NCBI GenBank assembly: GCA_007449985.2
Contig: VIIQ02000664.1
Coordinates: 310,001 to 374,000 of the forward strand
Length of the DNA stretch: 64,000 nt
From: Desmodesmus armatus
Taxonomy: Eukaryota; Chlorophyta; Chlorophyceae; Sphaeropleales; Scenedesmaceae
Direction: 5' to 3'
The position numbers and the translations under genes were made by a program. Shown here piece by piece: positions 36 through 46,013 of this stretch; position 1 is the first letter of the stretch; each line of letters opens with the position of its first letter. A model generated the notes under the pieces. It was not told the DNA's origin. It searched no databases and saw only the letters and a list, made by a program, of their open reading frames with translations.

Positions 36-1736
36 CTTGCTGTCCCTCTCTGTCACCAGCGCGCTGGTCTTGCTGAGCTCCTGCTGTGCGCTCTCCAGCG
101 ACTTCTGCAGCAGCTCCAGCTCAGCAGTCTTGCTGCTGACGCCCGCCTCAGAGGTGGACAGCTGCTGCTGCAGCTGTGCTGCGTGCTCCTCTGCTTTTGC
201 AATGTCAGCCTGCAGCCAACAGTGGGGCATGGGGCATGCATAGTTATCTCAAAATTGCGTGTCTCACACCCACAGTGCAAACACTGGCGCTCACCAGCTA
301 GCTGCTCGTTGCAGACAGAAGCAGTTTCTGAGCAGGCACCCACGCACAGGCTCATGCAGGGGGTCCCACGCAAAGGCGCCATGACTGAACATCATGACCA
401 AAAAAAAAACACAAAAAACATCATGACCAGCATACCTTGAAGCTGCTGATCTGCTGCTCCAGCTCCTGCTGCACTTTCTGCACCTCCTGCTCCAGCTCAG
501 CAACCTTCTGCTGCTTCTCAGTGGCGTCCTGCTCCCACTGCTGAGCGTCCATCTCTGCCTTGCCCTTGCAGGACAGCAGGTGCCAGCCCAGAGCCCTGCG
601 CACACAGCACAACACGCGCTACCACTGTCAACACATGTGCCCACTTATAGAACTACAGTCGGTGCCTGAGTGTATCAGCCTGCCAGCAATCGGTTGGGTG
701 AACATAGCACACCCTGGAGTAGCAGTAGCTGCACTCTCTACGCTCCTGCTGCCAGGCTTCACAGTGCTGACCCTGCGTGTGACTGGTGCTGTGCAACTAC
801 GAGGCACTTTTGAAGCTGATAGAAGGCGGTGTTTAGACACGCGCAGCCTCACTTCAGCTCCTTGATGACTGGCCCCATCTCCTCCAGCTTCTTTGCTGGC
901 AGTGTGCCCTTCTTGAAGGTCAGCTTCCTGCACGACCACAACAGCACAGCACAGCATAGCAGAGCACATGTGCGATGGAAATGAGCAGCCGAGTGTGCTG
1001 CAAGTGTGTTCAGTAGCACATACAGGGCCTTGATTGCATGTGCGCAAATGTGCTGCACTCAAATGATCCTCTGCGCCTGCAGGCATGGTGGCTCTGCAAA
1101 CATGGGCACACACTGGAAGAGTTTATCTGAGCTGCAGAAGGTATGCACACAACTCTGTGCGGAAAATGAGCCCAGATCAGCTGCAAGGTGTGCACACCTG
1201 TTGAGCACGTCGTCTGCGGTCAGGCCAGTGCGCTCTGCAATGTCATCCCATGTCTCCTCAGCCTTCGGCTCAGCAGCAGCTGCTGCTGCGGCTGCAGCTG
1301 CGGCTGCAGCTGCGGCTGCAGCAGCCCCACCCCGTCCTGCAGCTGCTGATGATGTTGTGCCAGCTCCACTGCGACCTGCTGCAGCAGATGAGCTTGCGCT
1401 GCGTCCTGTTGCTGCTGCTGCTGAGCGATCAGACCTGGCTGATGCAGTGCGGGTGGGACGCTTGGCCTCTGGAATGCCCTCCAGTGGCCCTCCACGCCGC
1501 TTCCTGTCCAGCACATTTGACTGCAGGACAAGATAAATGCAGCAGGAACCCGACACAGTCAGGCCGTGCAGTGCTGCTTTATTCGGTGTGCTCCAATCAC
1601 AGGCGCAACTGGCTGTTGATGCGCAACCGTCATGCTGCCACCCATTACTGACCTTCTCAGCAAGCGGCTCTGGACCCCCTCCTGTTGGGGGCACTTTGGG
1701 TATCCTGCTTTCTCTTCTCACTACCGAGCCATCCAT
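36..1736 (-). CDS. Coiled-coil protein, N-terminal part (3' end outside window)
   Basis: Five exons on the minus strand join in phase: 1653-1736, 1198-1520, 853-927, 436-595 and 36-209. A clean donor at 35/34 shows that the gene continues past the left edge. The start ATG at 1736 opens a basic, Ser/Pro-rich tail (MDGSVVRRESRIPKVPPTGG), followed by a basic patch (LDRKRRGGPLEG), an Ala-rich stretch of about 20 residues encoded by GCN repeats, and a helical segment (ETWDDIAERTGLTADDVLNR). The last two exons are heptad-like coiled coil rich in Glu, Gln and Lys. About 272 residues are visible. A basic tail with a RIPKV-type microtubule-binding look followed by coiled coil resembles the tail and stalk of C-terminal-motor (kinesin-14) kinesins, but no motor domain is in the window, so this is only a suggestion. 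Any cytoskeletal or kinetochore coiled-coil protein would fit equally. Confidence 0.72.
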
Positions 1737-4235
1737 GGCTCAGCAGGACGCCCTGCAGGTTGAGCAACAATGGGTGCAGCTGTTGAGCAGCGGTGCAGCA
1801 GTTGACGTTGTGTTGTGCGTGCATTTCATCTTGAGACGTAAGAGGTCAAGGAAAGTTGCACCACACATACATAAGCTGAAACACTCATGTAAGATGAATA
1901 TCATCAACCACAGCTACAATGCTGCTGCATCAACATTCGAACCAGGTGATGGTGGAGCAAGTTGTGCGTCCTGCATGCCCTACCTTGCTTCGCAGCAGAG
2001 CAGGTGCAATCCAAGTGTTATGTCTTCTTCACCAGCACACTTGGCCTGACGCATGCGCCCTCAACAAGGGAGCAACACTGCTGCACACCAACACAAGAGT
2101 GGTTGACGGGCTGAGTTTACGAGAAAACAATTTCAAAAGGGTAACGAAGCATGATCAACGAGTGCAGGCGGGGAATCGGTACACGTAGAAATTCAAACTC
2201 AAACCTGGCCAGGGTGTAGTACCACAAAAGCACAAGAAGCCCAGCCATCAATGCTGCCGACGTTGTTGCATGCGTCCGGCTGCAATAACGAAAGTAGACA
2301 CCAAGCCTCGGGCCAAGTACCCCACAGGGGATCAATTTGACAGCTGCTGTTGTTGATCAGTGCGACTGGTTCATCAATGGCAAGCGCTCTGCAAACACAA
2401 GCACGATACTCAAATGATATGTCACCAAGAGGCTCAGCAAGCACGTGCTTGCCTCTCTGTGGTGTTCAGAGACTGTTCTGGAGATGTGGGCATGGGGAGC
2501 GCCCCCCCCCCCTTCCCCTCCAGCTCTCACTCGTTTTACACCATGTGTCTGTCTTCTGTGGTCACTACGTTGCTACAAGCTGTGTTCAAGGTTGGGTGGG
2601 TCTGATACGTTGGATAGCGAGGCTTTGGGCGTTGTGCAAGAGAAGCAGAAGCTGGCACTGGACAACAAGCAATGCTGCTGCCAATGACAAAAAGCTACAG
2701 AAGCACTGCGAGTTCCAATCTGCTGGGTGAACATCCCAGAGCTGATAAATGAGAGTGAGCTGGCAGTCAGGCACAGCTGCCTGGTGCCCTCTTCAGATAT
2801 GAAGTTGATGGGGGCTGATATTACAAACACCCAGGTGGGGACGAAGCTCGTCCTTCAAGGGAGGGTTGGGGGTGAGTGTGGGTATTGGCCCATGAGTTGC
2901 ATTCAGAGATAGATGTCATGGTGACCAGTCATAGAGATGACACACTAGTCTCATGAGTGCGTTCCGATTCGCACACAGGGGTGCTGTGGTTAATCATGTG
3001 TCAGCAGAGGGAGTGCATGCGGACTCATACATGCTCAATAGGATGTGTATGCATGTGTGGGGCGGGGGCATCCAAGTCTGCAAAAGTGCAAGGTATCATT
3101 GGCAAGTGAGAGGGTTCGCACGTGTTGGGATCATGACACTGGAGAAGGGCACGTGCCTTTGGGAGGCTTAGCCTGTTGAGATGGTAGCCAGTTGGAAGCA
3201 GCTGGATGAGTGTCTCTACCAGTTTGTTGAGAGTCTCCACCCGTTTATTGTCTTTCTGTTGGGGGTTGATGAAGGAGCGGGGGGGGGGGGGGGCATGTGG
3301 CGTGGCAAAGGCATTGGCGCCATGGGGTATCCAAGTGGTGATTTTCCAGGCGGAGGAGACGTCGGAGGACAGCCGGTGTGTCAGTGACGGTACCCCTGTC
3401 CATAAAGAGATTGGCTGCACTCAGTCTCTATTCATAAGGTATCGGGAATAGCAAGAGAGGGAGAGCCCCACGACTTACTGCACACACAAATTGCTGCTTT
3501 GCCACTGGCTACACTGTAGCTGGAGGCTCCAGAAGCAGCAGGCAGCAGAGGAGGCAGCAGCAGTAGCAGATTGACCTAGGTGCAACCAACCCTGACAGAT
3601 ACAGCAGCTCTCAACGTGTGCTCTGTGACTCAACAAGTCCTGGCAGTCAATGCAGCAGCAACAGCCTGAGCAGCATCAACATGGGTGACTGGGTGTTGTG
3701 TTATGGCAAGGATGCCCTGGAACCAGCACAGCACACGCCCAGAACCACAAGTCATCGTGACTAACATGACAAAGCGGTGTATTGCGCTTGCTGCAGATCA
3801 TAACAGGAGCACAGCAGAGGATTGCGCACATGATCTGTCGGCCCAACTTGAGATGCTCTTGAGGATGGGTCACGACGTTCTCGTACCTTGTTCGTTAATG
3901 CGTATCATCTGATCCTACCAACCAGTGGCATGATGACTGCACCATCAGTGCAGTGCATCCCAGTGCCACCACGCATGCCATCTGCCTGCACCAACAGGTG
4001 AGGTCACCTGTCACATGGTCAAACCTCCCACCTTGGCAGGACGGTTTCTACCTGCACACCGTACGTGCAGCCAGCAGGGAGCACCATACTGTTGTATGTG
4101 CTTTTGTACACTTTCTGAGAGCACGAACGCCTGCGGTGTGTTTTCTTTCGGGCACGGAAAGGCAGCACGGATAGGGAGACGACCACGACAGATCGCCTCG
4201 ACGATGCAGCCTGAGCGATAAATCCTTGTTTTGTA
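1737..4235. other. Divergent intergenic region between coiled-coil gene and ZNFX1-like gene
   Basis: About 2.5 kb separates the two divergent start codons, so it should contain both promoters. I see no convincing exon here. Open frames are short and lack matching splice sites. The only notable features are a poly-G run near 3275-3293 and a poly-C run near 2501-2512. No TATA box can be assigned with confidence. Confidence 0.5.
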
Positions 4236-7200
4236 ATGCCTCCAAAGGCCACAGGGCTGGGAGGTGAGCCGCTAGGCACCATCACACTTGTTGCCCTGTT
4301 GCTTCCTTCTTTGAGTGACCCGCCACAACTGATGGCCTTGCAGGTCGCAGTCGAGGGGGAGGCAGGGGAGGTGGCCGCTCCAGGGAACCCAGCACCAACA
4401 GCGGCCATGACCAAGGGACTGCCTCTTCTAGCGGAGGCGCAGTCACCGGCAGCAGCAGTAGTGACAGGGGCCGTGGCAGAGGACCAGGCACCAGAGGCCG
4501 AGGGCGAGACCGCCACAACCCTGGACGCAGTCAGAGTGCAACTGCAGCTGCAACCTCCAACCCTGCTGGCAGTGCAAGTGCCCAACCCCAAGCAGCTGCC
4601 TCTTCCAGCAGTAGCGCAGTCAGCGGCCGCAGCGGCAGCAACAGGGGCCGTGGCAGAGGGCCAGAGGGCACCAGGGGTCGGGGGCGAGGTGGCGCCAACC
4701 CTGGACGCAGTCACAGTTCAGCATCAACAGCAGCGGCAGCTTCCAATAGCAGTGCCAACAGCAGGGCGGGGCATGGCAGCAGCAGCGGCAGTGACGCCCG
4801 GCGCTTGGGTGTTGCAGACATGAGGGAGCTGTTCAAGCGGCTGCTGAGAAAGTGAGCGGGTTTCAGCAGCTAGTGGATTCAGGCACTGACTTTTGTTGGG
4901 AAAGTCGCTTGGGCAGCCGCTTGCACAGGTGCTGAAACCCAGGACAAGAGGCGAAAGCGAAAACCTTGCAGTCTTCCAATAGGGAGACCAGCTGCACATA
5001 CTCAGGGTAACACTGGCATGCTGGCCTGCAGGCAGTGCATGTGTCAAGCTTTCGCGTGTGCCACTGCTTCGTGCGTGCACTGAGGGCTTGACAGTGGGGC
5101 TGGCATCAACACCGCATGCATATGAACCTTGCTTCTTCCTTCAATGGCCTGGCATCCGCTGCAGCAGGATCCACAATGCAGTCCAGCACTGCTTTACCAC
5201 ACATATGTTGAAGTTATGTTATGTTGCTGCTTCTGTGTGCCCTGCAGGCTTACCAGCGGTCCCCGCCGGCCTGAAGACCTGGCCCTCTTCCTTGACACAG
5301 CCTGGCAGCTGCTGCAGCTGGATGGAGAGGAGGACAGGGTGCTGCAGGCACTGGCTGACAGAGGGACTGCCAGCAGCCAAGAGAGTAGCAGCAGCGGTGT
5401 GGGTCCTGGGGGGCTGCGGCTCTTGCAGCACCTGGCACAGTCAACAGCAGCTGGGTCTGACTGCAAGCTGCACAGTTCGGCAAGCATGCAGCAGGTACGC
5501 AGGGTGTGATCTTCATCTTACATGGTTGGGATGCAACAACCCAAGGCTAGCAGCGCTGAGTGAAGAGTGAAGGAACACAAGTGCTCAAGATGCACAATCT
5601 GACTGGCAAGTGAATGCACTGAGACAGTTTCATACTGTCAACACTGGCATGCACCAGCAGTGCATGCTGATGAAACTGCTCTTCATGCAGTGCAGGTGTG
5701 CTGTTACCAGTTCGACTAGGGTGCCAGTCGTCTTCAGTTGGACAATCCCATGTCCATCAAAACCTTGAATTTGCCACCTTCTTTTGCTGCCTTGTAGGCC
5801 TCCAATGCACTCCCCTTCCTGCAGTGCTTCGTGCCACTGCTGCGGCTGCTTGGCGACCAGCAAGTCAAGACCTAAACCCTGCAACAGTACACCAACCCCA
5901 TCTATGCCACGATGTACAACAATGTGGACCATGCAAGGGCGGCTACTGTGCTGAGGGGCCTGGCTGCACAGGCTGCAGGAGACCCGTTTGCTGCTGCAAG
6001 CAGCGCAGGGGTGGGGTTCAGGTGATCATGGCTGTAAATATGTGCCGTATGCACCGCCCAAGGCCTGTTGGTCGCTGCTGTAGTGTGCAAACATGTACAG
6101 CCGTACCGTGTTGACATGCTACTCTTTGACATCCTGGTGGACAGTTGAAGCTTGCTCATGGCTAGCAGAGATGCCCTCACACTATCAATGCTCCAGGCGA
6201 ACTCACTAAGATGTGCGGTCAGCAACGTGCCAGTCCAAGCATCATGAGGCCCGCTAAGCTTGCTGTTTACAGTGTGAGCTTGTTACTGTCTGTTGCGCTG
6301 TTGCTAGGGGCCCCTGGCAACCAACCTGCTGGCTGGAAGTGCTGGAGCCCCTTGTGGGCTACCTGCTGGAGCTGCCTCGCAGGTTCAGACAGCTGGACAC
6401 TTGGGAGCAGCAAAAAGCAGGTAACAGCCTGAGGTGGAGATGCTGCGGCAGCGGGCCATGATGTAAGAAGAGCACGATTGCCTTGCTGAAGGCTGCGACT
6501 GCATTTCTGAACCAGCAATTTTGTGTTGCTGACAAGAGTCACATGGACCTCTGTGCACAGAGTAGGGCATGCCCTGCCGGTACCTGGGCGCACTCCCGGT
6601 ACCTGGGGCTATAGTCAGCTGAGTGTCTGATGATTTCATGTGTGGAAGCCAGCAACATATGGTGCTCCCTACCTTGCAGGCATCCAAAGCCTGTTTGCTG
6701 CTGCTGAAGACGTCTTCAAGACAAGAGTCATGAGTCAGGCTGAAAGCCACCGGGACGCACGAGCCAAGAGGCTGCAAGACAGCATAAGGATGCTTGCACA
6801 GTAAGTGCTGCTGCTGCCGCCGCTGCCAACTGGCTGCTGCCCCTGCAAGGTTTGTGGTTGCTGCTGCAGCTGCAAGCACTGCTGGACGCTGCCAATTGCT
6901 GTTGCTGTTGCTAGCAGAGTGCTGTTGGGCGCATGGCCCATTGGGCCTTGGGCCCTTGGGTGGGCCTCTCCCCCCCCCCCCTGATACATCATGTATCCGC
7001 CTTCAGGCTGCGCAAAGCCCAGAACAACCGACGACATGTCATGTTGGTTGCTTGCAGGCCTCTTGGACACCTGCAGCAGCAGTCCCAGAACCTGACGGAG
7101 CAGCAACGCAGCACCCAGCAGCGTGCGCAGGCGGCTGCCAGGCGAGCTGCTACATCAGTACCACGCTCTGACCCACCAGGTAGGTGATTGTTGCCAGTTT

Positions 7201-12989: not shown

Positions 12990-13071
<82 letters not shown>

Positions 13072-30590: not shown

Positions 30591-32190
30591 ACATGGACGC
30601 ATAGATGAGGCCAGGTCAAGGCATAGTCAAATCGGCGCAAGAGAAGGTGTCTGTTCTACAAGGCAGACTCCTGTTGTTACACACAAACGGTTGTCACACC
30701 AATTATCGGCAGTAGTTGTAAACTGTCTGATTTGCAAGTCTACCCATGCATCTTGTCCTACCACTTATCCTCTCAACAGAGCCCAGACACACCCACCGGC
30801 ACCAAGCTATGCGCACATCCACCCATGCACCACCCATTGTCCAACCTTGTCCAATCCACCCCAACACCACTTGTCCACCCACCGCCCCTATCCAGTGACA
30901 CATCACCCACCAACACAACCCACCCTGCCTCACCCACCCACCTGGATGCCCATCTCCTCTGAGAGGTACCTGCAGGCAACAACGGCACACCAGCAGACTG
31001 TGAGTGCTCACAGTGTTTCCCTTTGCTGTGCAGCTCTGATGCTGATCATCAGTAACTCAGCCCTATCCTGCAGCGTCTGCTGCAACAACACAAACAAAAC
31101 AGGAACAAACCCGTTCAACACCAGCCACACAAACTGGTTGCTTGACACTACTTCAAGTCAAGCCGCACATCTCAACCTGGTCCAGATCAGGGTTCAGGCT
31201 TCTGAGATACTCAAGACACACTCAAGCTACAAGACATACTCAAGCTACAAGATATACTCAAATACATGACATATTATGTACTCAAGCAATTGGTACGCAA
31301 GCATGTGTTTGGTGATCGTGTCCCAATCTACTCACTTGAGTTGGCTGCCTGTCACTGCCAGCCTGAAGTGGCCTATCCCCATGGCAGGGTTGGGGTGCAC
31401 ATGGTCCACCAACCACTCAGCAGCAAAGGGTGACGCCAACCCTGCTGCTGCTGCTGGCGGTGAGTCAATCAGGGCCTCCTCTCCTGCTGCTGCTGCTGCT
31501 GGTGACTTCAGCTGCAGTGGGCTGCAACGCGCATGTGGGAATGCCGCTTCCAGGAATTCAGGTGCTGCCGTCACAGACACCTCTCCTGCCTCTGCTGCTG
31601 CTGCTGCATTTGCTTTCAACCCCTCCCATGCTGCCTCTGCTGCTGCTGTTAACGATGCTGGACTTGCCGCTCCTGCTGACGCCATCACATCTGCTGCAGC
31701 TGCTGTTGCTGCAGCTGGTGCCACTGCAACTGCTGCCAACGCCGCTGATGTAGCAGCAGCAGCAGCAGCAGCAGGAGGAGCGCTGCTGCCAGGGCTGTCA
31801 GCAGCAGCAGCAGCAGCAGCAGCAGGATTGCCTGCGAGGGCAGCAGCCACAGCAGCAAGGAAGGTCCCTTGCTTCGCCTTTGTCTGCCTGCCAGACAGCG
31901 ATCTAGAGGGACCCCCAGCAGCAGCAGCTGCAGCAGCAGCAGGTGCCCTGGACGACAACCGTCCTGCTGCTGCTGCTGCAGCTGCTGTGCTGCCAGCCCC
32001 CATTGCTGCTGCTGCCCCAGGACCATCTGATGCTGGCAGATGGCCGGCAGCAGCAGCAGCTGTAGAACCACCACCACCACCACCACCATCAGCCACCACC
32101 TCCCCAGTATCGCCGTCGTCAGCCTGGTCCCCACCCCCTGGGGAGCTGAGCCAAAACGGTGAGAAAGAGGGGCCTTCCTGCTGCTGGTGC

Positions 32191-32223
<33 letters not shown>

Positions 32224-33641
32224 TGCTGCTGCTCCTGCTGCTGGTGCTCCCGCTGCTGCTGTGCTGCTGCGTCTTCGATCGACTGCTCCAGCTGCTGTTG
32301 TGCTGTTGGCTCCACCATGACCTGCTCAAGCTGCTCAGCAAAGCGAGTTCGCTTTGGCGTCCTGCCCTTTGGCTTGCTGCCGGCAGCAGCTGCTGCTGCT
32401 GCTGCTGCTGCTGGCGGAGGGAATTCCAAGGGCAATTGGGCTGCTGCAGCTGAGCGCTTCCTGCCATGCTGCTGCTGGTGGTGGTGCTGCTGCTGCTGCT
32501 GCTGTAGTAATGCCTGCTGTGGTTCAGAGCCACTCTCTACCCCGGAACCCTCAAGAGCCTCTGCCCCATCTATGTCCACCGCCATGCTGTCACCGCTGGC
32601 TGTATCCAAAACTGCCTCCATACACAACAGACTCTGCTGCTCCTGCTGCTGCTGTTGCTGCTGCTGCTGCAGCTCCTGTTGGCGACCCTCAACCCGCTCC
32701 TGCTGCTGCTGATGGGGCATCAGCTGCTGCTGCTGCTGCTGTTGCTGCTGCATGTAAGTGTCAAATTGCTGCTGCCGTAGTGGGTCCTGAGCTATGAAGG
32801 TCCTGTACTGCTGCAGCTGCACCTCCAACTCATGGTTCTGCTGCTGCAGGACCTGAAGCTGCTGGTGGTGCAGCTGCTGCTGCTGCTGCTGTTGGTGCTG
32901 TGGCTGGTTTGCAGGTGGGCACCGCGTGCTGCCTGGTTGCCAGATTGCAGGGACCTGCGCTAACGTTTGCCACCGGCCGACAAAACGGCGACTGTGCTGC
33001 TGTTGCTGCTCCTGCTGCGGTCGAGGATCACGGCTCTTGTGTTCATGCCTGCTATGAGGACCACCACCAGCAGCAGCAGGCTGCTGCTGCTGCTTTACTG
33101 CAGCCCTCTGCTGTGCTTGAAGCTGGAGTGCGTGCTCATTCAGCACTGTGGGTGCTGCTGAGCGCTGGGGCCTGAAGCTGGAGTTATCCAACGCTGCTGC
33201 TGCTGCTGCTGCTGCTGCCACTGCTGCTGCCGCGTCCTGTGCATCGTCGCCTGGCTGTGCAACTGCCACCCCTGCTGGATCAATGCCTCCTGCACCTGGC
33301 CCCGCACTGGCTGATCCCTGAGCGCCAGCTGCTGCTGCTGTAGCTGCTGCCGCTGTAGCTACCGCTGTTAGGCCCTCTGCTTCAACCGCTAGCTCCTCAG
33401 ATCCAGCAGCCGCTGATGCTACTGCTGATGATGACGATGCTTCAGCCTCAGCTGCAGCTGCTGTTTCCACTTCTGCAGTTGCTGCGGCTGCTCTCGCAGG
33501 GTCTGCTGCCTTTGTAGGTGACACATATGTATCCTGATGTCCGGTTTTGGCAGTAGTAGCAGCTGCATGGCAGCCTGCTGCACCTGCTAGTGCTAGAGGG
33601 ATCAGCACGGGGTCTTGCTGCCTTGGCATGCTTTGAGGCAT
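27986..33641 (-). CDS. Gln/Ala-rich protein A (paralog of neighbouring gene B)
   Basis: Proposed exons on the minus strand: 31356-33641, 31012-31067, 30942-30969, 30244-30395, 29139-29790, 28531-28781 and 27986-28253, about 1230 residues, with all phases consistent. The first exon is low complexity (poly-Ala, poly-Gln, poly-Gly) but has islands shared with gene B: RPQRSAAPTVLNEHALQLQA, QQFDTYMQ, a MEAVLDTA block and GSKPKGRTPKRTRFAEQLEQ. The C-terminal exons are not low complexity: YLSEEMGIQVPAAVVLEALA, a Cys-containing stretch CCYAADVSEMIDRCTWPSSF, YIEQHMLGCYILEW, KFIDGDGCDVLPPNG, and an Ala/Glu/Lys-rich basic tail. I do not recognise the family. A second good donor at 31335/31334 is out of phase with the next exon, so the link between the large exon and the rest is the least certain part. 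The start at 33641 was chosen by alignment with gene B. Confidence 0.6.
29018..29154 (-). repeat. Minisatellite that duplicates a splice donor of gene A
   Basis: The exon ending at 29139 finishes with GCTTGATGCGCAG followed by GTGTGTGTGC. An almost identical block recurs at 29018-29042. Between them lie tandem GATGTG/GCTTGAT units, CATCA-type on the plus strand. The true and decoy donors are therefore about 110 nt apart within one expanding repeat. Confidence 0.85.
30131..30204. repeat. AT-rich (AATAA)n tract in gene A intron
   Basis: An isolated stretch of about 70 nt made almost entirely of A and T (AAATAA and TAATAA units), in a window otherwise rich in GC. It lies in the intron following the exon at 30244-30395. 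Confidence 0.9.
30357..30650 (-). repeat. Tandem duplication of a gene A exon start
   Basis: The first codons and acceptor of the exon at 30244-30395 (block 30357-30477) recur at 30498-30650, including CTCAAGCACCACGG, a CAG/GCN run and a GGACGCATA-type tail. The second copy keeps an acceptor-like CGCAG and reads AVVLESLAAY before a stop. It lies in the intron upstream of the real exon. Confidence 0.85.
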
Positions 33642-33863
33642 GGCAGCGAGACCTGTGACTGTCAAAGGATACTCATTGAGGAATAACAAGTATGATCGGG
33701 CATGCAGCAAGTTATCCAAGGCGCAAGATTGTTGGTATGCTGCAATTGTTTGATGCATGCTCTTGGGTTTCCTGCAGAAAGTTTTGTTGAGCATGCTCCG
33801 TTGTGACTTGTGTGTGGTCGCACAGGAGTCTAACATGGTGAGGGATTCTAGATTGAAATAGAT

Positions 33864-34001
33864 CTATCGGTGTTCACAACAGCAAACGACAGACGAGCAA
33901 GAACACAAGTCCCGCAGATCCAAGACATGCTGTCCCTGCTGCTGCCCCCTTTGCTGTTGCTGCTGCTGCCCCCGTGCCAATGACTGTCGTTGCAGCAGCA
34001 A

Positions 34002-34041
<40 letters not shown>

Positions 34042-35589
34042 ATAAGGGCCTGCTGCATAAGGGCATGCTGCATAAGGGTCTGCTGCATAAGGGCCTGCTG
34101 CACCTTCGCCTTTTTCACTGCGTGCATTCAAGTGGTGGCAAGCATGAGCGTATTGGCCCGAAAGGTGGCATGAATGGGAGACACTCAACACCTTTAGTCC
34201 AGCAGCGGCCCAACCTGCACCAAAACGTCCTTGATGTACGACGCACGCCCTCACCTCCACGTGACGCCACTGCCCACTGCCACTTGTTCATGCCAGGTGG
34301 TGCACCAGCCGCCTTCCTTGCCTCCTCGCTCCAATCAGTGGGACCCCCTGATGCACCTGCGTGCATCAATGAGGTGTTTGTGATCATTCGGCACAATCGT
34401 GGACACTCAAGCCAACAAACGCATGTCATGACAGGAGGGCATGTAGTGGAGCGTTCTTGCCGGTCAGTTTTCACTTCGTACACACTGTTAGAGTAAAATT
34501 TACTGCACACTCCTTGATGTAGGTACGCATGACACCCCAACTTGCATGCATGGCGTCAATTAGCCCACACGTCCTCACCTGCATGCTGCCACTTGGTGGT
34601 GCCCGGTGATGCACCAGCCGCCTGCCTTGCCTCCTCGCTCCAGTCCATGGCACCTCCCTTTGACATGGCGGTCACAATGTTGCCGTGGTCATCGTGAACA
34701 AGTTTGTAGCCTTGGAGAAGGGCATGGACAGAAACATAAGGATTGTTGGTACAGTACTGTCGTTTGTACCCGTCAGAGCCCCATGTCGGTCAGACCGATT
34801 GCCAATTTGGAGAGATAGGGTCGTACGTACAGTGCACTCCGATGGGGAAAGCGAGTAGGGTCTACCCCTGGTCTACCCCTGGCTTCGGCCAGTGTGAGGT
34901 TTGATCAAGGGGATGTCAGATCAGTGAAGTTCAAAACAACCACAGCCACGGCACAAATACCAAAAATATATACACAAAGGCATCCATACCCATGTGAAAG
35001 CGTCATGTGGTCAAAGATGACGTCAAAACTGCTGTGCCCATGGGACCACACCAGATGGGCACCGGTGGTACCACACCTCACAAACATCACACTCTCAATT
35101 GCCGACACCATCTTCCACTTCCTGAAGCCCCTCTTTTCCAGCACCCTAGGCTTGTGAGCATTCTGCGCTGCAGCGCCAGCCACTGGCGACTCCCCAGTAC
35201 CAGTATCCCTTGCAGTCACTGAGTGAGCTACAGTTGGTCGGCAGGCGCCGGCGGGAATATGTCCGTCAGCAGCACAAAAACTGACAGCTGCCAGCTGCCT
35301 GCTGGTCCCTCACTGTGTTCCAAGTCCTCACTGTCTTCTGAGTTCGACTGCGCCTGTCCCCAGTGTTCCCTACAGTCACTGAGTGGGCTGCAGCTACTTG
35401 GCAGGCGACGGCGGGAACGTTGCCGTCAGAAGCTCAAAAACTGACAGCTGCCAGCTGCCTGCTGGCCCCTCAATGTCTTCCGAATCACTGTCTTCTGAGT
35501 CACTGTCTTCCAAATCACTGTCTGCCGAGTCGCTCTGCGCTAGGTCTATGGCATGGTCACGGTCACAACCAAGGGCCGAGCCACTGCTG

Positions 35590-35645
<56 letters not shown>

Positions 35646-36480
35646 TGCGGCCTGGTGCTGCTGGGCAGACTCACGCTGCTGCTGCCGCTGCTGCTGCTGC
35701 TCGCTGAGGTCAACTGCAACATCCGCATCAGCGCCAGCACCTTCTTCGATCTTTACACAGCTGCCGCCACCAGCTGCTGCTGCTGCTGCTGCTGCGGATG
35801 CGGCCCCAGCTGCCGCTGCTGCCGCTGCTGCCTCTGCTATCGCAGCCGCTGCGGAGGCGTCTCCTGCCTCTGCTCCTGCTGCTGGGTCTGTTGCTGCTGC
35901 TGCTGCTGCTGGGTCCGGTGCTGCTGCTGCTGGGTCTGGGGCTGCAGACCCAGTCCCTGCATCTGCTGCCATTGCTGCGGCAGGTGCCTCTGCTGCACCT
36001 GCTCCAGATGCTCCCGCTGCCGCTGCTGCATCTGCTGTTGCCGCAGCTGCTGCTGCTGTGGACTCGCCCCCAGCCGCCGCTGCTGCGTCTGCTACCGCAG
36101 CCGCTGTGGAGGTGTCTCCTGCTCCCGCTCCTGCTCCTGCTGCTGCTGCTGGGTCTGGTGCTGCGGCCCCAGTCCCTGCATCTGCTGCCATTGCTGCGGC
36201 AGCTGCTCCAGACGCTCCCGCTCCCGCTCCTGCATCTGCCGTCGCCGCCGCCGCTGATGCTGCTGTTGTTGCGCCAGGGTTGCTCAGCCGAGACGCCGAA
36301 GACGAGGGACCCTGCTGCTGCTGCTGTTGTTGGTGACGCAGGCCTGCTACGCCGCTGTTGCTAGCTGCTGCACTGAACGTGAGGGCCAGCTGCTGCCGTG
36401 CTGTGGAGTCCGCTATCACTTTTTCTAGCTGTTCAGGGACGGCGAAGCCAACCCGCTTTCGTCTGCGCTTGGCACTGCTG

Positions 36481-36534
<54 letters not shown>

Positions 36535-36917
36535 CACAGTGCAAGCAGCAGCAGCAGAGGCCCAGCCAGCCTCAGCAGCAGCAGCTGCTGCTGCTACAGC
36601 TGGCAGGTCGTCAGAGGAGAGGTCAGCTGCAGCAGCTGAGCGCTTCCTACCTCGCTGCTGCTGCTGCTGCTGCTGTGGTGTCTGTTCCGACTCCGATGCA
36701 GGTTCTGAGGGGCTCTCAGGGGCTTCTGCATCATCATCGTCCGCAGACATGCTGGCACTGCTGGTGGCTGTATCCAACACTGCCTCTAGACAGTTACTTT
36801 GCTGCGGCGGTTGCTGCTGCTGCTGCTGCTGCTGCTTGTACGCGTCAAACTGCTGCATCAGCAGCGGGTTCTCAGCCATGAAGGCCCTCATCTGCTCCAG
36901 CTGTGCCGCCAGGTCTA

Positions 36918-36949
<32 letters not shown>

Positions 36950-38301
36950 GGCTGCTGCTGGGGCTGGGGCGGTTGCTGGGGCAGCTGCTGTTGCTGCTGG
37001 GGCTGGTGAGCAGGTGGCCACTGCATGCTGCCTGGTGCTCTCCAGGGTCCAGCATCTTTCAGCATCTCCGGGGCAGTTGCCCAGCGGCTGGACCGCCGCT
37101 GTTGCTGTTGCTGCTGCTGCTGCTGCTGCTGCTGAGGCCGAGGAGCAGGTTGCTTGCGTGCACCCCTCTTTCTAGAACCCCCACCACAAGCAGCAGCTGC
37201 AGCAGCCGCAGCAGCAGCCTGCTGCTGCTGTTGCTGCTGCTGTTTAGCCCTCTCCTGGGCCTGCAGGTCGAGTAGGCGCTCATTGAACAGTATAGGTGCC
37301 GCTGAGCGGCGGGGCCTGGAGCGGGGGTGATCCCTTCCTGCTGCTGCTGCTGCTGCTGCTGATGCCTCATGCTGTTGTGCAGCTTCCTGTGACTGTGCTG
37401 CTGCAACATTCAAAAGGTTCCCATCACTGCCAGTAGCGCCAGCACCCGCTGACCCCTCAGCACCCCCTGCTGCTGCTGCTGCACCCTCAGCTGCTGCCAC
37501 TGCTAGCTGTTCAGGTGCAGCAGCTGCTGCTGCAACTTCAGCTGCTGCAATATCCAGCTGTCTGGGAACAGCTGCTGCTGCAGCCTTAGCTGCTGCTGCC
37601 AGCTGTTCAACAGGAGCAGCAGCTGCTGCTGCAGCTGCTGCGCCCTCAGCTGCTGCCACTTCCAACTGTTCAGAGGCAGGAGCAGCAGCTCCAGCCGCAG
37701 CATCAGCTGCTACTGCCAGCTCAGGAAGAGGAGTTGCTGCTGCCCCCTCAGCTGCTGCCACTAGCAGCTCATCAGCAGCAGCTGCTTCAGCCTCAGCAGC
37801 CACTGCTTCAGACTCAGTGGCAGTTTCTGACTCTGTAGCAGTTTCTGAATCAGTAGCTGCTTCAGACTCAGCTGCAGTAGCTGCTGAAGCCTCGGCTGCT
37901 GCAGCAGCCCCAGGTGCTGCTGGCATTATGTGGCCACCCGCAGCAGCTGCTGCGTCCTGTACAGTGTCCTTTGGTTGTCCTGCGATGCCCAGACCAGCAC
38001 CACCAGCAGCAGCAACTATGGACCCCTGATCTCCTGCTGCTGCTTCTGCTGCAGGTGCTACTGATGCTTCAGGTGCTGCTTTTAAAACCCCTGCAGCAAC
38101 CACCACCTCCCCAGGGTCGACAGCTACTGCTGCAGCCTCAGGTGCTGCTGCTTCTTCGCGCTCAGGTGCTGCTGCCTCAGCTACTAAGTCTAACAGCTCC
38201 TGATGTCCGTCTGGTGTTGCAGGAGCTGCTGCTTGGAAGTCTGCTGCTGCAGCTTCACTTGCAGCTGCTAGTGCTAGCATGCGCTCCTGCTGCATTGCCA
38301 T
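33864..38301 (-). CDS. Gln/Ala-rich protein B (paralog of gene A; frame broken)
   Basis: The start at 38301 (MAMQQERMLALAAASE) opens a frame to 36433 with islands matching gene A: RPRRSAAPILFNERLLDLQA, QQFDAYKQQ, CLEAVLDTA and GRKRSAAAADL. At a triplet repeat (36483-36540) the frame turns into poly-Cys and soon stops. The family block SSAKRRRKRVGFAVPEQLEK continues in another frame, which runs on (35394-36419) through an Ala-rich region to an acidic DSEDSDSED end. Likely further exons are 34579-~34710 (GYKLVHDDHGNIVTAMSKGG), 34255-34356 (GGPTDWSEEARKAAGAPPGM) and 33864-34117 (KKAKVQQALMQQ, then poly-Gln, stop at 33864). The last two join in phase, and the junctions before them are unresolved. 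A segment at about 35010-35190 (KPRVLEKRGFRKWKMV) also looks coding. I do not recognise a function. Confidence 0.55.
34255..34710 (-). repeat. Tandem exon duplication in gene B
   Basis: Two consecutive exons encode near-identical segments: AMDWSEEARQAAGASPGTTK (in 34579-34710) and PTDWSEEARKAAGAPPGMNK (in 34255-34356). Both end with a GTGAGG donor in phase 1. Both could be included, or they could be alternatives. Confidence 0.8.
35223..35480 (-). repeat. Tandem duplication of a gene B exon end
   Basis: The block 35383-35480, encoding AGSWQLSVFELLTA on the minus strand, recurs at 35223-35320 with the shared core CAGCTGGCAGCTGTCAGTTT. The second copy is interrupted by stops. Confidence 0.85.
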
Positions 38302-38731: not shown

Positions 38732-40171
38732 TCACTTCCCAAAGCCCTTCTTGGTCGCTGGCCTGGGTTTCTGACCCTTCCTTGCTGCAACAACAGCATC
38801 CTCCCGCAACCCCTTGATCTTTGGCACCTGCACACCACGCAGCACACCACACCACAGTGATATGACAGTCATGATCAGTCTCATGAGACAGTTGGGCGCA
38901 GCATGGCACAGCACACATTATGCCCCTTGAACACACAAATCTCACGTGCGACGTTTCAGCTCATCACTCGTTGTGTAAGCACCATCTTCCATGTTGCAAG
39001 CCATGTGCTGCAGCAGAAACTTCTTGTCTCAGCGAAGCATTGTTTACTTCTTCCACAGCACAACTACCTTCTGCCTGCACAGGCTGCACCTGTAGTCCAA
39101 CTCCGCCCTCAGACCAGTGACAGTCTGACTGCAGCCCCACCCCCTTCCCCCTGCCCAGGCTGCTCAACTGGGCCGTCCCCTGCTGAGGCAAGCCCACTGC
39201 TCCCACAGCTCAACTGCCAGTTTGACTAGTGCCACAACAGTAGTACCTCCTGCCTGCACAGGCTGCCACTTGCCCAACATACTCTGCCCTCAAATTAGAG
39301 CCAGTCTGACAGCAACCAGCAGTAATTCCGCAGCAGCAACCACCTGCTTGAGTTTCTCTGCCAGCGACAGCAGTAGCCGCTCCACCTCCCACCCCCCTAC
39401 CGGGACGCCTACCTTCTGCCTGCACAGGCTGCCACTCACCGCAACACCCCCCCCCCTCGGACCAGAGACAGTCTGACACCGAGCAGCACACATTCTCCAG
39501 CATAGGGATGGCAGCAGCACCCACCTGCTTGAGTTTCTCTGCCAGGCCAGCAATGACATCAACCTCTTGCCGGCATGGGTGCCGCTCGCTAAATCAACTC
39601 CCCCCTCAGATCAGAGACAGTCTGACACCAACCAGCAAAGGTCAACGCAAACCCACCTGCTTGAGCTCTCTGCCAGGCTGACACTGCTGCCCTGAGCATT
39701 GCAGCGCAAGCCCAGGGCATCCAGCACCCCCCCCCTCCCCCCTCTCCCCTCCCCCCTCCCCTCCCCCCACCCCCCCACCCCCGCCCGCCCACCCCCACAC
39801 CCCCCCCCCCACACACACACCGCTTCCCCCCCCCCCCCGCCGCACCTACCTGTTTGAGTTTCTCTGCCAGGCCAGCAATGACGTCCAGCAGCAGCTGCTT
39901 CTTCTGACTGCGGAACAGCACCGCCAGCTGCATGTCACCCGACAACGCCTCAGCAGCTGCTGGCGCCGCTGCCGGTGACACCACGTCACCAGCCGCACTG
40001 CTGCCACCACTGCTGCCGCTGCTGCTGCCGCCGTCGCCATTGCTGCTGCTGGTGTTGCTGCTGCCGGATAGCAGGGCCTTATCATGGTCCAGGCCTGCTT
40101 TGAAAGTTTGTAGGGCCCCTAGAGCCATTCCCAGGAGGATGCGCAAGGTGGCAGTCTGCACACAAGCACGG

Positions 40172-40203
<32 letters not shown>

Positions 40204-43200
40204 TCCAGTCAGGTACAGTGTTAGTGAGGCAGGAGTGATCTGTTCAGAGCATGATTGGCAGAGTTGATCACACTTGCACCCTTAGCCCCACCCTGCGCCA
40301 CTTCCCGGACAAAAGGCCTGCAGGTTTGGTGGCACCACTGTGCACAGAGTGTCTTAGCAACAAAAGCACAGACACTCGGCCGACAGCATCAGGCATACAG
40401 CACAACCATTGGCACTTGCCTGTGCTTGTAGGAGTATTATGATGTATTGCTGTGCATTTCGTTGGGAATGCATACATGCTGCCCATGCACACTCTATGCT
40501 GACACACCTCGTTTCGTTTGTTGAGAAGTCGCTTCCAGCTGACCAGCACCTCGAAACACGCACACACCACCTACATGCACACGTGCGCTGATGCTGAGTT
40601 CCCCCCCCCCCCCACACACACACACACACACCACAGCCCGCACCTCGTTTCGTTTGTTGAGAGGTCGCTCCCAGCTGCCCAGCACCTCCAGTGTGAGGTT
40701 CTCCACCTCACTCTGGTAGGTGGACACCAACCCACGCACAGCAGCAAGCAGACGAGGCTCAACAAGCTGGGGACCACCCAGCAGCACCTGCAGGGGCAAC
40801 AGGGAGGGGGGCGAGCAGTAAGGTTTTGGACAGGTGACATACAGCAGGGATTGCAACAGCCAGCGTTCAATGCAGCAGACGAGGCTCAACAAGGTGAGGA
40901 CCACCCAGCAGCACCTGCAGGGGCAGCGGGGGGGGGGGGGGGGGGGGCAGTAAGGTTTTGGACAGGTGCACAGGCATTGAGCTGCCCCTGCTGACATACA
41001 GCAGGGAGTAACAACAGCCAGCGCTCAAAGCGTAGCATGAAGCATGTGTGCTTGTATGGGGCAGCCACCCAGTGACATGCAAGGCCACCAGACCATGCAC
41101 AGCAGCAAGCAGACGAGGCTCAACAAGCTGAGGACCACCCAGCAGCACCTGCAGAGAACGGGGGGGGGGGGGGGGGGTGCAGAAGGGAGGGCGAGCAGGG
41201 TGTGCAGGCATTGAGCTGCCTTTGCTGACATACAGCAGGGAGTAACAACAGCCAGCACTCAGAGCATAGCATGGGGTGTGTGTGCTTGTATGGGGCCGCC
41301 ACCCAATGACATGCCAGGAGATGGTGTTGTGGCAAATTTTACACATTCAAACCCAAGGGGCCGCCAGTTTACCTGGAGGTTTGACTTTTTGTCATTTGCT
41401 GCCAGTGTCAGCTTCTTGAGCAGTGCCTGCCTCCAAGGAGCATTGGCATTCAGCTCCAGCAGGCGACCATCCGCATCCACTGCACCTCCGATGTCTGCAG
41501 CTCCCTGCAGAATACAGCATACGGGCAACAGGCAGCCAACGGCAGGTCAGCACACGACTGTTTGGCAAAACACGACGGCAAGGGGAAGGGGGCAAGCGTT
41601 TGGTGCGACAAAGCACAGCGTGTGCAGGTGCAGCGGTCAGCTCCAGCAGGCGACCATCCGCATCCACTGCACCTCCAATGTCTGCAGCACCCTGCGTGTG
41701 CGCAACATGTGGGGGAAACAGGCACCCAATGGCAGGTCAGTACATGTTCGTTGGGCAAGGGGGACGACGGCAAGGGGGGGGGGCAAGCGTTTGGTGCAAC
41801 AAGGCAGCCCAAGTGCATGTGCAGCGGTCAGCGCCAGCAGGCAGCCGACCATTCGCATGCACTGCGTTACCAACATCTGCATCCCTCTTCGTACGTACGG
41901 CATGTGGGCAACAGCCAGCCGACCGACGATGCCAGCACATGGCCGCCGGCCGAATTCGACCACGCTCGAACGCCAAAGCATTCCGGCCGCACACGTGCCC
42001 GGCTATCACAAGGCTATCACAAGGCCCGCTGGAAAACCGTGTTACGTTTACCTTACTTACGTTGACCAGGTTCATGTCAAAGCGCAGCGCCACTCGGTCA
42101 TGCGGGTTTTCGGGGATGACGAATCCATAGTCCATCAGCAGGAAGTCGTTGCTGAGGGGCCCGTAACTTAGCAGCAGCGGCTCGCCAGCAGCGATCTGTC
42201 AATGCAGCAGCAGCAGCAGCAGCAGCAGATGCATGAGACACAGTAGGAACTGATCCTTCCCACACAGCTTTGACTGAACCCCTAAGCCACCATTCTCTTG
42301 TCATTCACAACAAGGCATTCTCTTGTCTATCCAACAAGAGTATGATGGCCACTTCTGCCAGTCTCCTTGCACTGCTGTTGGGTTGCAGGCCCTTACGCCA
42401 GTCACCATCCAGTCCCCAATCCCATCTCGGCAATGCCATAAGAATGACGACAAGATGACCTTACCGGCTGCTTTGCCACCATGGCCACTCCCCCAGGCAC
42501 CGGCAGCACCTCGCAGTTTGGTGTGAAGCTGTGGTTGGCCATGTCTATGAGAGGCAGCAGGGCAGCAGGGGCCTGCGGACCAGCAACCCTGAACGCCCGA
42601 CTGGTCACCACAGCCAGCGCCCAACCTGCACGACACAACCCACAACATTGGGCAGTGAGTGAAAGCAACTTGCTAGCGCCATACCACGCAGGAGTCAAGC
42701 AGCCAACCGCAAGCGTTTCTGGTATATTTTGCTTGCGGCAGGCACTTGGCCGCAACAGCCAGCAATCAGGGCTCAAGTGTCAGGGATGCTGCATTGAATA
42801 TGTGACCGCATTGTGGTGTAAGCAACACAAGAATCACTAGTGGGTAATGTCAGTTGATACTGAATAGCTCCGGCAACCCACCTAGGCTGTTGGTATCCAC
42901 GAGCACTCCCTCAAAGGGGTCATCAGCAGTCCCAGGCAGCTTTGACAGCACGTCAAGGCTGAAACGGTGCAACCAGCGGCCACGTCTCTTCACCTGACAG
43001 CAGCAGTAACATGGCGGCAGCAACATGACGGCAGCACTACTAGTTTAGTAAGCCCTAAATCCCAACCCTTGAATTTCCAGGATCGTGTGTCAGGCGGCCC
43101 GTCAAACAAGGGCTGCCAACCAAAAAAATCAAGGGCTGTGCTTTCCTCAGCACCACCTATAGGTGGTCAGTCGATGTACAAATCCAACGACTCATGCCTG

Positions 43201-46013
43201 CTTGCGCTGTGCCCTTGTGTGCCCAGCATGCACTCAGTAACTATTGCTGGCAAAATGCACTGACGCCCCCATGCCTATGGCAACAAGTGGGTGGCGCCAA
43301 CAATTGACACTGCAAGAAACCCAACCCCTACCACCAACGCCACCACCCACCTGTTCCACCACTGGGGGGTACTCTATTGCCTCCAGTGCCTCCCTGGGGA
43401 AGAACATCGGCACACCAGACACCCCCACAGGCAGGTTGGCCACGTAAGCAGCAAAGCGGCTGTCAGAGCCCTGGACGCGTGCCGCAAGCACCTGCACAGG
43501 CAGTCACCATGTGACACATGGATGCCACAACATTTTTCAACAATTGGATAAAAAGATAACAATTGGATGAATAATGAAAAAAAATTCGTGTAACACTTGT
43601 ACAAAACAGTTACACAAATTTAGGCACAGCTATTCACAGTGCTTGGGGCTGTCAGAGCCTTGGATGCGCGCAGCAAGCACCTGCAGAGACAGTTACAACA
43701 TCACAGTACAGTACAGTACAGTTTCAGTACAGGTAAAGGAGACAGGGTCCCAACCTTGGGCAAGGGCTGATGAGAGATATCACACAATGACAAAACCCAC
43801 ATCAACAAAAAAAAACCATCACAAAGTCAGCGGGGCAGCGGCGGGGTTGTCAGGGCCATGGACCGACCAGCACCTGCAAGGGATGCAAAGTCACTCAGTT
43901 GCAACACCAGAATTGACCCCACCAACCGCCAGCCCAACATACAAGGGTGTGACCAGGATGGTGTGACCGCCGATGTGTATCAACCCAGCCTGCGAATGTG
44001 TTCATACACGATGCCCTTTGGGGGTGCATTATCAAACACCCCTGGATAGAAGGCAAGGGCAAGCCTGCCAAGGTAGAGTGGATGCATACTTTGCGATAAC
44101 AACCGACCCCCCCCCTCCCCAGGATAAACACAATCGCACACTCCCCCCCCCCCCCCCGAAAAAACAAAACCGCATACCTGCAGGGCCAGCTTTGCTCCCC
44201 AGAGCTCCTCAGGTACTTGCTGTATGAGCTGCAGCACCCGGGGGTCACTTGACTCATCGTATGTCAGGTGGCAACTGCGGGGCAACTCTATCAGCCGCTG
44301 GCCTGCTGAAGAAATGGCCTGGGGGCAGCACAGCACAGCACAGCACAGCAGGGGGGGGGGGTTGTAGTGAGCAAAAAGCTCTATCAGCGCTGGCCCCCTT
44401 TTCAGATGGCCTGAGAACAGCACAGCAGTAGGGCGGGTGGGTGGTTGGGGTGAGGGGGGGGGCAGTATTGGATGACTCATTATATGTCAGGTGGCTGCTG
44501 CGGGGCAACTCTATCAGCCGCTGGCCACCTGCTGGAATGGCCTGGGGACAGCACGGCAAAGCAGGGGGGGGGCGCAGGACTAAGATGAGAACGATGAGGA
44601 GCGGGGTGCAAGGAGTGCTGGAGATGGAAGGAAGCAGGGAAGGGGGGGAGGAGTGTTGAAAAAAAAGGAGGAATGGGGCGTCACCGCCAAGACCACATAG
44701 AGGCTGTGGGCAAAGGTCAGTGTCTACTCTGTGGGCTCTCAGATATTGCAGGCCAGGGCTTGGGGTCGTGGCATTTTGCAAGCGCAGAGTTGACTAGGCC
44801 CCAGCATATGCCAGTTGACTTTAAAAACATCGATTGAATACAATTCATGCAAGGCCGTGTGTGTGACGCAGCCACTCCCACATCCCCCACCACAGTAGAC
44901 CCTCACCTGTGGCGCCACCAAGCCCCACCCTGGCACCCCCAAACTTTGCAGCCGCCTTCGACCCCCTTCGCCCCCCCCCCCCCCCCGCCGCACCCCACTT
45001 CCACACACTGCACCTCCACCCCACCCGGTGGCACCCCCACCACTGCACTTTCCATCCCTGGGGGTCCACCACAAACCTAAGGCCAAGGGGGGGGGGGGGG
45101 ACGCACGGCCTATTTCTCGCAGGGGGGGAGGGGTCGATCGAGAAATTAGCCTAAATCGTCAAGGGGGAGGGAGGGTTTCAAAGGCCCATCCATAGGGGGA
45201 ACAGCAGTACCTAACAACAGCCTAAAGCCGACACGGGGGGAGGGGTATGTGCGCCAAACAGCCTAAAATGGACACGGGGGAGGGGTAGGAGCAAATTTGG
45301 CGTCCCCACCCCCCGGTCTTGGGTCTGTGGTGGACCCCCTGCACCCCCACCTCCACACTCCGCACCCCCTCTCCACTCCTATCACCACCCTCACCCATGC
45401 ACCCCCACCTCCACACTCCGCACTGCCCCTCCACCCCCACCCCCACCCCTGCACTCTGCACGCCGCCCACCCCACCCCCACCACCACAGTCAACACCACC
45501 TCTCCACCCCCACGCCCACACCGCACCAAGCACCTCGCACCCCCCCACCCCCCACCGCAGCAGCCCCTTACCTGTGTTGCCACCAAAGCCCCCCCCCTGC
45601 ACCCAGGACTCCCTCCCCTGCACCCCCCCCCCCTGTCCCCCCCCTCTCCCCCCCCCCCAGCAGTCCCCCACCTGTGTTGTCACTAAGCCCCAGCCAGAGC
45701 CTCCGTCACTCCCAGCCAGGTTGGCCACACCCACACCAGCTACCGCACCACCGCTGCGCTGAACCCAATCGATCAATGGGTGATGAGTGCTGGAGGGAGA
45801 CGGACTGCTGGGGCCACCGGCTGCTGCTGCTGCTGCTGCCACCACTGAATGCCGGCTGCTGCTGCAGCTGCCCCTGCTGCTGCTGCTGCTGCTGTTGTTG
45901 CTGCAGCAGCAGGCTGCGTGCCAAGGTAAGGTCGGCTGTGCTGGTGTGAAGAGGCTGCTTTGTAGGTGCCGGTGACAGCGTACGAGGTGCACTGCATTGC
46001 TGGTCAACTGCAT
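38732..46013 (-). CDS. SET-domain protein, Rubisco large-subunit methyltransferase family
   Basis: A complete gene with ten exons, all in phase: 45672-46013, 44178-44318, 43351-43491, 42882-42993, 42465-42625, 42061-42195, 41373-41504, 40644-40787, 39850-40155 and 38732-38827, giving 569 residues. The N-terminus (MQLTSNAVHLVRCHRHLQSS, then Ser/Ala-rich) looks like a chloroplast transit peptide. The split SET domain starts near residue 85 (LIDWVQRSGGAVAGVGVANL) and includes GQRLIELPRSCHLTYDESSD, ALLPLIDMANHSFTPNCEV with the NHS motif (~274), and LLLSYGPLSNDFLLMDYGF, which carries the catalytic-type Tyr (~309). The C-terminal half (LVEPRLLAAVRGLVSTYQSE, LRILLGMALGALQTF) corresponds to the Rubisco-LSMT substrate-binding domain. 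The protein ends in a basic tail. Such enzymes trimethylate lysine on Rubisco large subunit or fructose-bisphosphate aldolase, and other substrates are possible. The introns are packed with degenerate exon-edge copies. Confidence 0.93.
39341..39685 (-). repeat. Three decayed copies of the SET exon 9 3' edge in intron 9
   Basis: The exon 9 end (GAGAAACTCAAACAG|GT at 39850) recurs at about 39655-39685, 39523-39563 and 39341-39372. Each copy keeps a GAG..CTCAAGCAG|GT-like donor. The copy at 39523-39563 still reads DVIAGLAEKLKQV. They are embedded in a degenerate tandem array with CAGTCTGAC and CCTGCACAGG motifs. Confidence 0.9.
39722..39840 (-). repeat. G-rich tract next to SET exon 9 donor
   Basis: About 120 nt that are almost pure C/A on the plus strand, hence runs of 4-10 G on the transcript strand, beginning within about 10 nt of the exon 9 donor. 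The pattern is suited to G-quadruplex formation in the pre-mRNA. Confidence 0.9.
40508..40554 (-). repeat. Copy of SET exon 8 3' edge in intron 8
   Basis: The exon 8 end at 40644 (GSWERPLNKRNE|GT) recurs as SWKRLLNKRNE|GT at 40508-40554, with donor-like sequence kept. It lies inside the following intron. Confidence 0.92.
40874..41149 (-). repeat. Two copies of SET exon 8 5' edge in intron 7
   Basis: The exon 8 start (CAG|GTGCTGCTGGGTGG, encoding VLLGGPQLVEPRLLAAV) is repeated at 40874-40915 and 41090-41149. Both copies keep an acceptor-like CTGCAG next to a long poly-G run. The copies read VLLGGPHLVEPRLL and VLLGGPQLVEPRLLAAVHGL. Confidence 0.95.
41636..41885 (-). repeat. Two copies of SET exon 7 5' edge in intron 6
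   Basis: The exon 7 start at 41504 (GAADIGGAVDADGRLLEL) is repeated almost perfectly at 41636-41691 and more decayed at 41829-41885 (DADVGNAVHANGRL). Both copies keep an AG acceptor. The surrounding intron also repeats GCAAGCGTTTGGTGC-type motifs, so the unit is about 200 bp. Confidence 0.95.
43648..43873 (-). repeat. Two copies of SET exon 3 5' edge in intron 2
   Basis: The exon 3 start at 43491 (CAG|GTGCTTGCGGC, encoding VLAARVQGSDS) recurs at 43648-43680 as VLAARIQGSDS and in decayed form at about 43840-43873. Both have CTGCAG or TTGCAG acceptors. Confidence 0.9.
44365..44541 (-). repeat. Two copies of SET exon 2 5' edge in intron 1
   Basis: The exon 2 start at 44318 (AISSAGQRLIELPRSCHLTY) recurs at 44470-44541 as AIPAGGQRLIELPRSSHLTY, still open and with a CCCCAG acceptor. 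It recurs again at about 44365-44410 with stops. The outer copy loses similarity shortly after ESSN and has no matching donor. Confidence 0.95.
44905..45595 (-). repeat. Copies of SET exon 1 3' edge in intron 1
   Basis: The exon 1 end at 45672 (GWGLVTTQ|GT) is echoed at about 45571-45595 (GFGGNTG) and 44905-44935 (GLGGATG), each with a CACAG|GTAAG- or CACAG|GTGAG-like donor. They are separated by C-rich tracts that resemble one another, so a larger unit was probably duplicated. Confidence 0.75.

Follow-up and report, generated by a model that had tools for sequence, protein, structure and literature searches.

Why should the introns of one gene hold piece after piece of the exons that border them? 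The question is raised by a SETD3-like gene of the green alga Desmodesmus armatus, which lies in a 64,000-nucleotide stretch of contig VIIQ02000664.1 (positions 310,001 to 374,000, assembly GCA_007449985.2), hereafter the window. Intron lengthening is mostly credited to transposons and small insertions. In this gene, introns contain partial copies of the adjoining exon edges, splice sites included, and similar arrays are present in other genes of the same genome. The explanation we favour, to which we give a probability of roughly 80%, is that frequent local tandem duplications crossing exon/intron borders leave inert, decaying exon edges behind and lengthen the introns.

The gene is composed of ten exons and nine GT-AG introns (Table 1), and forms a single continuous open frame, with a SET domain and a Rubisco-LSMT substrate-binding domain in its product. 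A protein search gave Tetradesmus obliquus and Scenedesmus proteins as the closest, at 70-74%. When the product was aligned with its three nearest proteins (P0002 to P0004, the first of which apparently comes from a transcript assembly, to judge from its source name), zero insertions were found at the nine exon junctions. The length difference closest to any junction was a single residue, in P0002, some 5 residues before the exon 7/8 junction. The intronic copies are therefore outside the conserved protein.

Copies were searched for by comparing a 60-base segment spanning each border with the remainder of its intron, 500 block-wise dinucleotide shuffles being used as control. For 7 of the 18 borders (exon 1 3′, exon 2 5′, exon 3 5′, exon 7 5′, exon 8 5′, exon 8 3′ and exon 9 3′), a copy in the adjoining intron outscored all 500 shuffles, although exon 1 3′ passed narrowly (its score was 47, that of the best shuffle 44). 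Scores at the remaining 11 borders were chance-like, being reached in 31 to 434 of the 500 shuffles, and exon-interior windows compared with introns rose above control in 0 of 13 cases. With exon letters alone, six borders were still strongly significant and exon 1 3′ dropped out (score 24, shuffle mean 22.4). Self-comparison and self-BLAST revealed many local direct repeats within the gene, and 14 copies were sited in six introns (1, 2, 6, 7, 8 and 9), all 14 with an intact AG or GT, and with aligned identities to the border going from 94% down to about 72%. The first-pass annotation had reported copies in six of the nine introns, keeping their AG or GT and differing in age. Each of these points was borne out, and random matching does not account for borders that exceed their shuffled controls: the exon-edge copies of the SET gene are confirmed. 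That the copy in use is always the one contiguous with its exon, as had also been remarked, follows from selection, since the other copies would break the protein.

Simple-sequence runs are hard to assemble, and the copies could in principle be false duplications created at that step. However, they differ by about 6-28%, several levels of divergence coexist within a single array, and the same pattern was met on several further contigs, so that an assembly artefact is hardly credible.

The repeats extend beyond the exon. Under permissive alignment, homology at exon 7 crossed the border into the intron (161 of 187 aligned bases), two additional units with homology reaching into the intron were found at the exon 8 5′ edge, and at the 3′ edge of this exon homology extended beyond a GT and G-run expansion. 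The second exon 3 copy has a long homologous stretch on the intron side of the border, and self-BLAST homology at exons 1, 2, 3 and 9 extended 11-23 bases beyond it. Because the homologous sequence does not stop at the exon edge but takes in adjoining intron, the repeats are border-straddling units, and the tandem duplication across splice borders put forward in the first-pass annotation is upheld. Spacings between repeats were mostly about 85-310 bp; larger ones at exon 1, such as 665 and 765, may be multiples of the unit. One junction, that of the exon 7 array, is compatible with microhomology: the point where the copy departs from the exon sequence is a CTGA, and the unit begins with this CTGA too. 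When the whole assembly (115.8 Mb, 831 contigs) was searched at the DNA level, the exon 8 copies matched only beside their own gene.

Table 1. The SET-domain gene and the exon-edge copies found in its introns (window coordinates; a slash marks the exon/intron border).
Feature	Position	Strand	Remarks
SETD3-like SET-domain / Rubisco-LSMT-substrate-binding protein gene	38732..46013	-	569 aa
Exons 1-5	45672-46013, 44178-44318, 43351-43491, 42882-42993, 42465-42625	-	
Exons 6-10	42061-42195, 41373-41504, 40644-40787, 39850-40155, 38732-38827	-	
Exon 1 3′ edge copy with donor	45538..45604	-	site 45571, CAG/GTAAGG
Exon 1 3′ edge second copy with donor	44873..44938	-	site 44906, CAG/GTGAGG
Exon 2 5′ edge copy with acceptor AG	44473..44563	-	site 44543; 87% over 91 bp
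Exon 2 5′ edge second copy, decayed	44379..44437	-	site 44412; in-frame TGA
Exon 3 5′ edge copy	43647..43696	-	site 43682; 86% over 50 bp
Exon 3 5′ edge second copy, decayed, with intron part	43837..43909	-	site 43875
Tandem unit (about 187 bp) made of intron 6 sequence and an exon 7 5′ edge copy	41637..41831	-	site 41693
Exon 7 5′ edge unit, second, older copy	41828..41950	-	site 41888
Exon 8 5′ edge copy with intron part and poly-C tract	40874..41007	-	site 40916
Exon 8 5′ edge unit, second copy	41072..41318	-	site 41150
Exon 8 3′ edge copy with donor and subsequent intron	40468..40552	-	site 40507; 94% over 48 bp
Exon 9 3′ edge copy	39514..39560	-	site 39524; 91% over 47 bp
Exon 9 3′ edge copy	39333..39372	-	site 39343
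Exon 9 3′ edge copy, one-base deletion	39643..39676	-	site 39656

Introns with arrays measure 488-1353 bp, against 256-357 bp for those without, in agreement with the intron growth suggested by the first reading of the sequence. That this growth is ongoing is plausible, given the spread of identities within one strain. Birth of new introns, through duplication of AGGT-containing exon sequence, had been brought forward at the same time. That introns can be gained by tandem genomic duplication is established (PMC3443670), and AGGT is present at several of the copied edges. Nevertheless, the units include intron sequence homologous to that beside the border, meaning that existing introns were lengthened and not born, and copy-free introns of ordinary length exist in the gene. 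The exonic duplicated segment and exon-derived intron of the AGGT (Rogers) model were not found here, and we consider this route very improbable.

We then asked whether the copies could be functional. A codon-by-codon count over all SET-gene copies gave 33 differences at 161.5 synonymous sites and 36 at 384.5 non-synonymous sites. The non-synonymous fraction is 0.52, for an expectation of 0.54 if a free copy is compared with a constrained exon (P=0.4). When six borders were each represented by their best-preserved copy, a set which omits exon 1 and in which the copies of exons 2 and 9 are not the physically nearest ones, 12 synonymous and 10 non-synonymous differences were obtained (P=0.26). 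In the exon 8 3′ copy, 3 changes out of 3 are non-synonymous. Two affect residues (G and P) common to the three nearest relatives, and at the third an E, which is D in the relatives, becomes K; for these reasons the changes most likely occurred on the copy side. Use of the outer splice sites would cause a frameshift at 12 of the 14, and bring in-frame stops at the other 2. The earlier idea that the copies provide alternative exon segments is not supported, in view of these outcomes and of their neutral-like decay, and the SET-gene copies are most likely inert. A related proposal is that the outer copies serve as alternative or decoy splice sites, giving extended or unproductive transcripts that would regulate the gene. 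It draws on the AG or GT kept in 14 of 14 copies, several of which have good donor contexts (CAG/GTAAGG, CAG/GTGAGG), and on a second SET gene (L029, described below) whose intronic copies appear constrained by the protein. Yet any outer site of the present gene leads to a frameshift or stop, its copies decay like neutral sequence, and the splice dinucleotide has been lost in some copies from other genes (in L033, in an exon 3′ copy of L029 and in L043 3′). Such a use of the copies is unlikely.

Exon-edge arrays were next looked for elsewhere in the genome, in small samples, with borders called by eye from reading frames and splice signals. Among 8 protein-kinase loci, chosen for short open frames (86-113 aa) and blind to repeats, 4 had recognisable arrays (L041, three borders; L042; L043, two borders; L046, four units), as many as three borders being affected within 3 kb. 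The same was true of 4 of 10 poly-C loci (L031, three borders; L033; L035, two borders; L039), taken from clusters among the listed places of contig C1, omitting 57.8-61.2 kb; at L031, runs about 190 bases apart had been seen beforehand and 4 kb were taken instead of 2.4. Arrays were also present in 2 of 20 spaced 10-kb blocks (L021 and L027, the only two whose repeats were classified for borders), which come from three contigs (C545, C560 and C564) and were not randomly drawn. The first-pass annotation had viewed the SET gene as exceptional; in fact, exon-edge duplication is a property of the genome, unevenly spread, and not of this gene alone. Local repeats cover 341 bases per kb in the SET gene, compared to a mean of 24.6 and a maximum of 74 in the spaced blocks (n=20), whole 10-kb blocks being a poor comparison for a single gene. 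Coverage was 0 in the shuffled control, for which 35 sequences were shuffled once each.

Pfam identified L021 as VPS11, L029 as SET, and one L041 exon as kinase, and returned no match for peptides of L027, L035, the second L041 and L046; L035 would, from its motif, be an oxidosqualene cyclase. Tandem repeats of exon pieces large enough for Pfam were tried as a proxy for the whole genome and rejected: among the kinase-profile matches (141 listed; 120 of 685 candidates scored), no adjacent repeats of one profile stretch were seen by eye, although L041, from the same kinase list, has edge arrays, and such a search is blind to short edges. Five kinase arrays carry 12 synonymous and 10 non-synonymous differences, with no clear synonymous excess (P=0.14, L042 and L046 excluded). 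A count by hand for the L042 edge gave 3 of each.

These observations can be brought together as follows. Head-to-tail local duplications would arise often within genes of this alga, presumably by replication slippage or microhomology-mediated repair. When a unit spans one border, the copy attached to the exon would stay spliced, and the other, its AG or GT included, would remain behind in the intron, free to decay. Recurrent events in one intron, together with exchange between units, would produce short arrays and longer introns, and duplications that are wholly exonic or hold a whole exon would mostly be purged by selection. Border crossing would be expected by chance where introns are short: in a random-placement model, a border is crossed by 53-93% of the tolerated duplications if introns measure 250 bp and units 90-230 bp, so that a border-seeking mechanism is unnecessary.

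A border-specific process, such as splicing- or transcription-coupled breaks, or an effect of the poly-G or poly-C tracts next to splice sites, would be compatible with local tandem duplication. In its favour, a G or C run of at least 7 is present in 6 of 6 copy-bearing introns of the SET gene and in 0 of 3 copy-free ones (chance 1 in 84, calculated by hand), and L029, L027 and L031 show a high density of runs. Part of this density is circular, however, because arrays multiply runs, and random placement already predicts that units are mostly border-crossing. Over 26 blocks of 10 kb, the correlation between run density and repeat coverage was not significant (Spearman 0.26, P=0.20). The spaced blocks were also divided to give 80 pieces of 2.4 kb, of which 21 contained a run and 59 did not; local repeats were found in 4 of the former and 12 of the latter, and one L027 piece with 2.1 runs per kb had no repeats. 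The comparison of poly-C loci with run-free pieces gave P=0.066, and L042 and L046 have arrays with no run of at least 8. A single G/C run was rejected as a simple predictor on the piece counts and the Spearman test, a causal role of the runs is unproven, and a border-specific process seems to us rather unlikely. On the sense strand of the SET gene, G runs are mostly located by donors and C runs toward acceptors. Genome-wide, 12-base C runs are very common: counting overlapping matches, there are 79338 positions in forward and 72591 in reverse orientation.

Several points weigh against duplication at random followed by free decay. The placement model assumes an ancestral intron length taken from introns 3-5, and with 600-bp introns border crossing falls to merely 26-43%. 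Retention of AG or GT in all 14 SET-gene copies is somewhat above the expectation for free decay (about 5%, a rough hand estimate). The synonymous/non-synonymous test has low power on short edges, and copies of the same exon share the changes of that exon and are not independent. Border arrays were recognised in 0 of 8 SET-family loci taken by Pfam rank (one of these loci, L006, contains a single repeat pair, which was not checked against exons, and L001 has one pair, below filters). Array density is thus very uneven, and random placement alone leaves the clustering unaccounted for. The last points concern the nature of the differences in other genes. L029 (G000:C759:83501-90500, positions 1550-5240), picked up because the first SET search gave three adjoining matches, is another SET gene with exon-edge arrays. 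Two of them are built on exon 5′ edges, one with 5 units and one with 3 if the working unit is counted, and the third on a 3′ edge, with 5 units. In its arrays 2 and 3, the nearest copies show 14 synonymous differences and 1 non-synonymous (P=4e-5), and the further copies 38 and 6 (P=3e-9). For array 1 only private changes enter the counts; changes private to intronic copies amount to 31 synonymous and 13 non-synonymous over the three arrays. A mild synonymous excess was also found for ten arrays in other genes (25 and 14, P=0.002).

The bias in L029 is not what free decay gives, and from the pattern of codon changes its copies look protein-constrained. It could originate from unequal exchange between diverged alleles, or from a real use of the copies. 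Evidence bearing on exchange comes from L035 (1640-2340), where an exon 3′ edge is repeated in three units of 251 bp. Units 1 and 2 have an identical intron, units 2 and 3 a common exon variant, and the middle unit seems to be a hybrid made by unequal exchange, a process that would then occur in this genome. Conversion by a paralogue was rejected as the origin of the synonymous differences seen in L029 and in L035, because no near paralogue was found: DNA searches with an L029 exon and an L035 exon matched local copies only, and a protein search with L029 added only matches of 46-56%. A broader proposal is that the arrays reflect a continuing, genome-wide growth of introns in which, in some genes, the intronic edges constitute a live reserve of exon ends. 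We hold this for possible but doubtful. If true, the edges would be held to the protein sequence through being exchanged with the working edge, or replacing it, by recombination or splicing, and L029 would be the clearest case.

Border-crossing tandem duplication may be compared with known systems. Introners are dispersed copies of one element. As in our arrays, intron sequence is added to many genes of one genome, but near-identical dispersed copies were not found here, the exon searches for SET exon 8, L029 and L035 matching locally only. Mutually exclusive exons do not fit either, as each SET-gene copy has one border, and 14 of 14 outer sites break the frame or add stops. The nearest case is the potato RdRp gene, in which, according to PMC4974935, a single border-crossing tandem duplication produced a new intron. 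The units of the alga are of the same type, with an intron end and the next exon start, or an exon end and the intron start, lying beside the original; the potato case is nevertheless one event with a new intron, whereas here multi-unit arrays lengthen old introns, on donor and acceptor sides, in several genes. The 2011 tandem-duplication work, as it is presented in PMC3443670 and PMC4974935, likewise involved splice-site sequence and left the protein unchanged; unlike it, the algal units are part intron, and no new intron position was shown. In the same two papers, Gao and Lynch 2009 is cited for within-gene duplications being common, and for segmental duplications with entire introns. No genome-scale report for a green alga was found in the literature covered, outside of which many subscription papers lie, and the word intron is absent from the main text of a Sphaeropleales genome paper (PMC12571836). 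What is added over known work is the scale, the involvement of both intron sides, the multi-unit arrays, and lengthening rather than birth.

Elsewhere in the window, the region next to the SET gene (31332-38301) has abundant CAG/CTG-type repeats and, on the minus strand, two long open frames of 834 and 622 aa, and a perfect TC microsatellite of 37.5 copies lies at 12994-13068.

For gene annotation, intronic copies of exon edges are a practical concern, since they can misguide gene prediction. A genome of this kind would also reveal how often the spliceosome chooses among near-identical splice sites. Finally, with border-crossing duplications of graded age in several unrelated genes, it would become possible to measure how fast introns lengthen by this route, how large the units are and what becomes of them.

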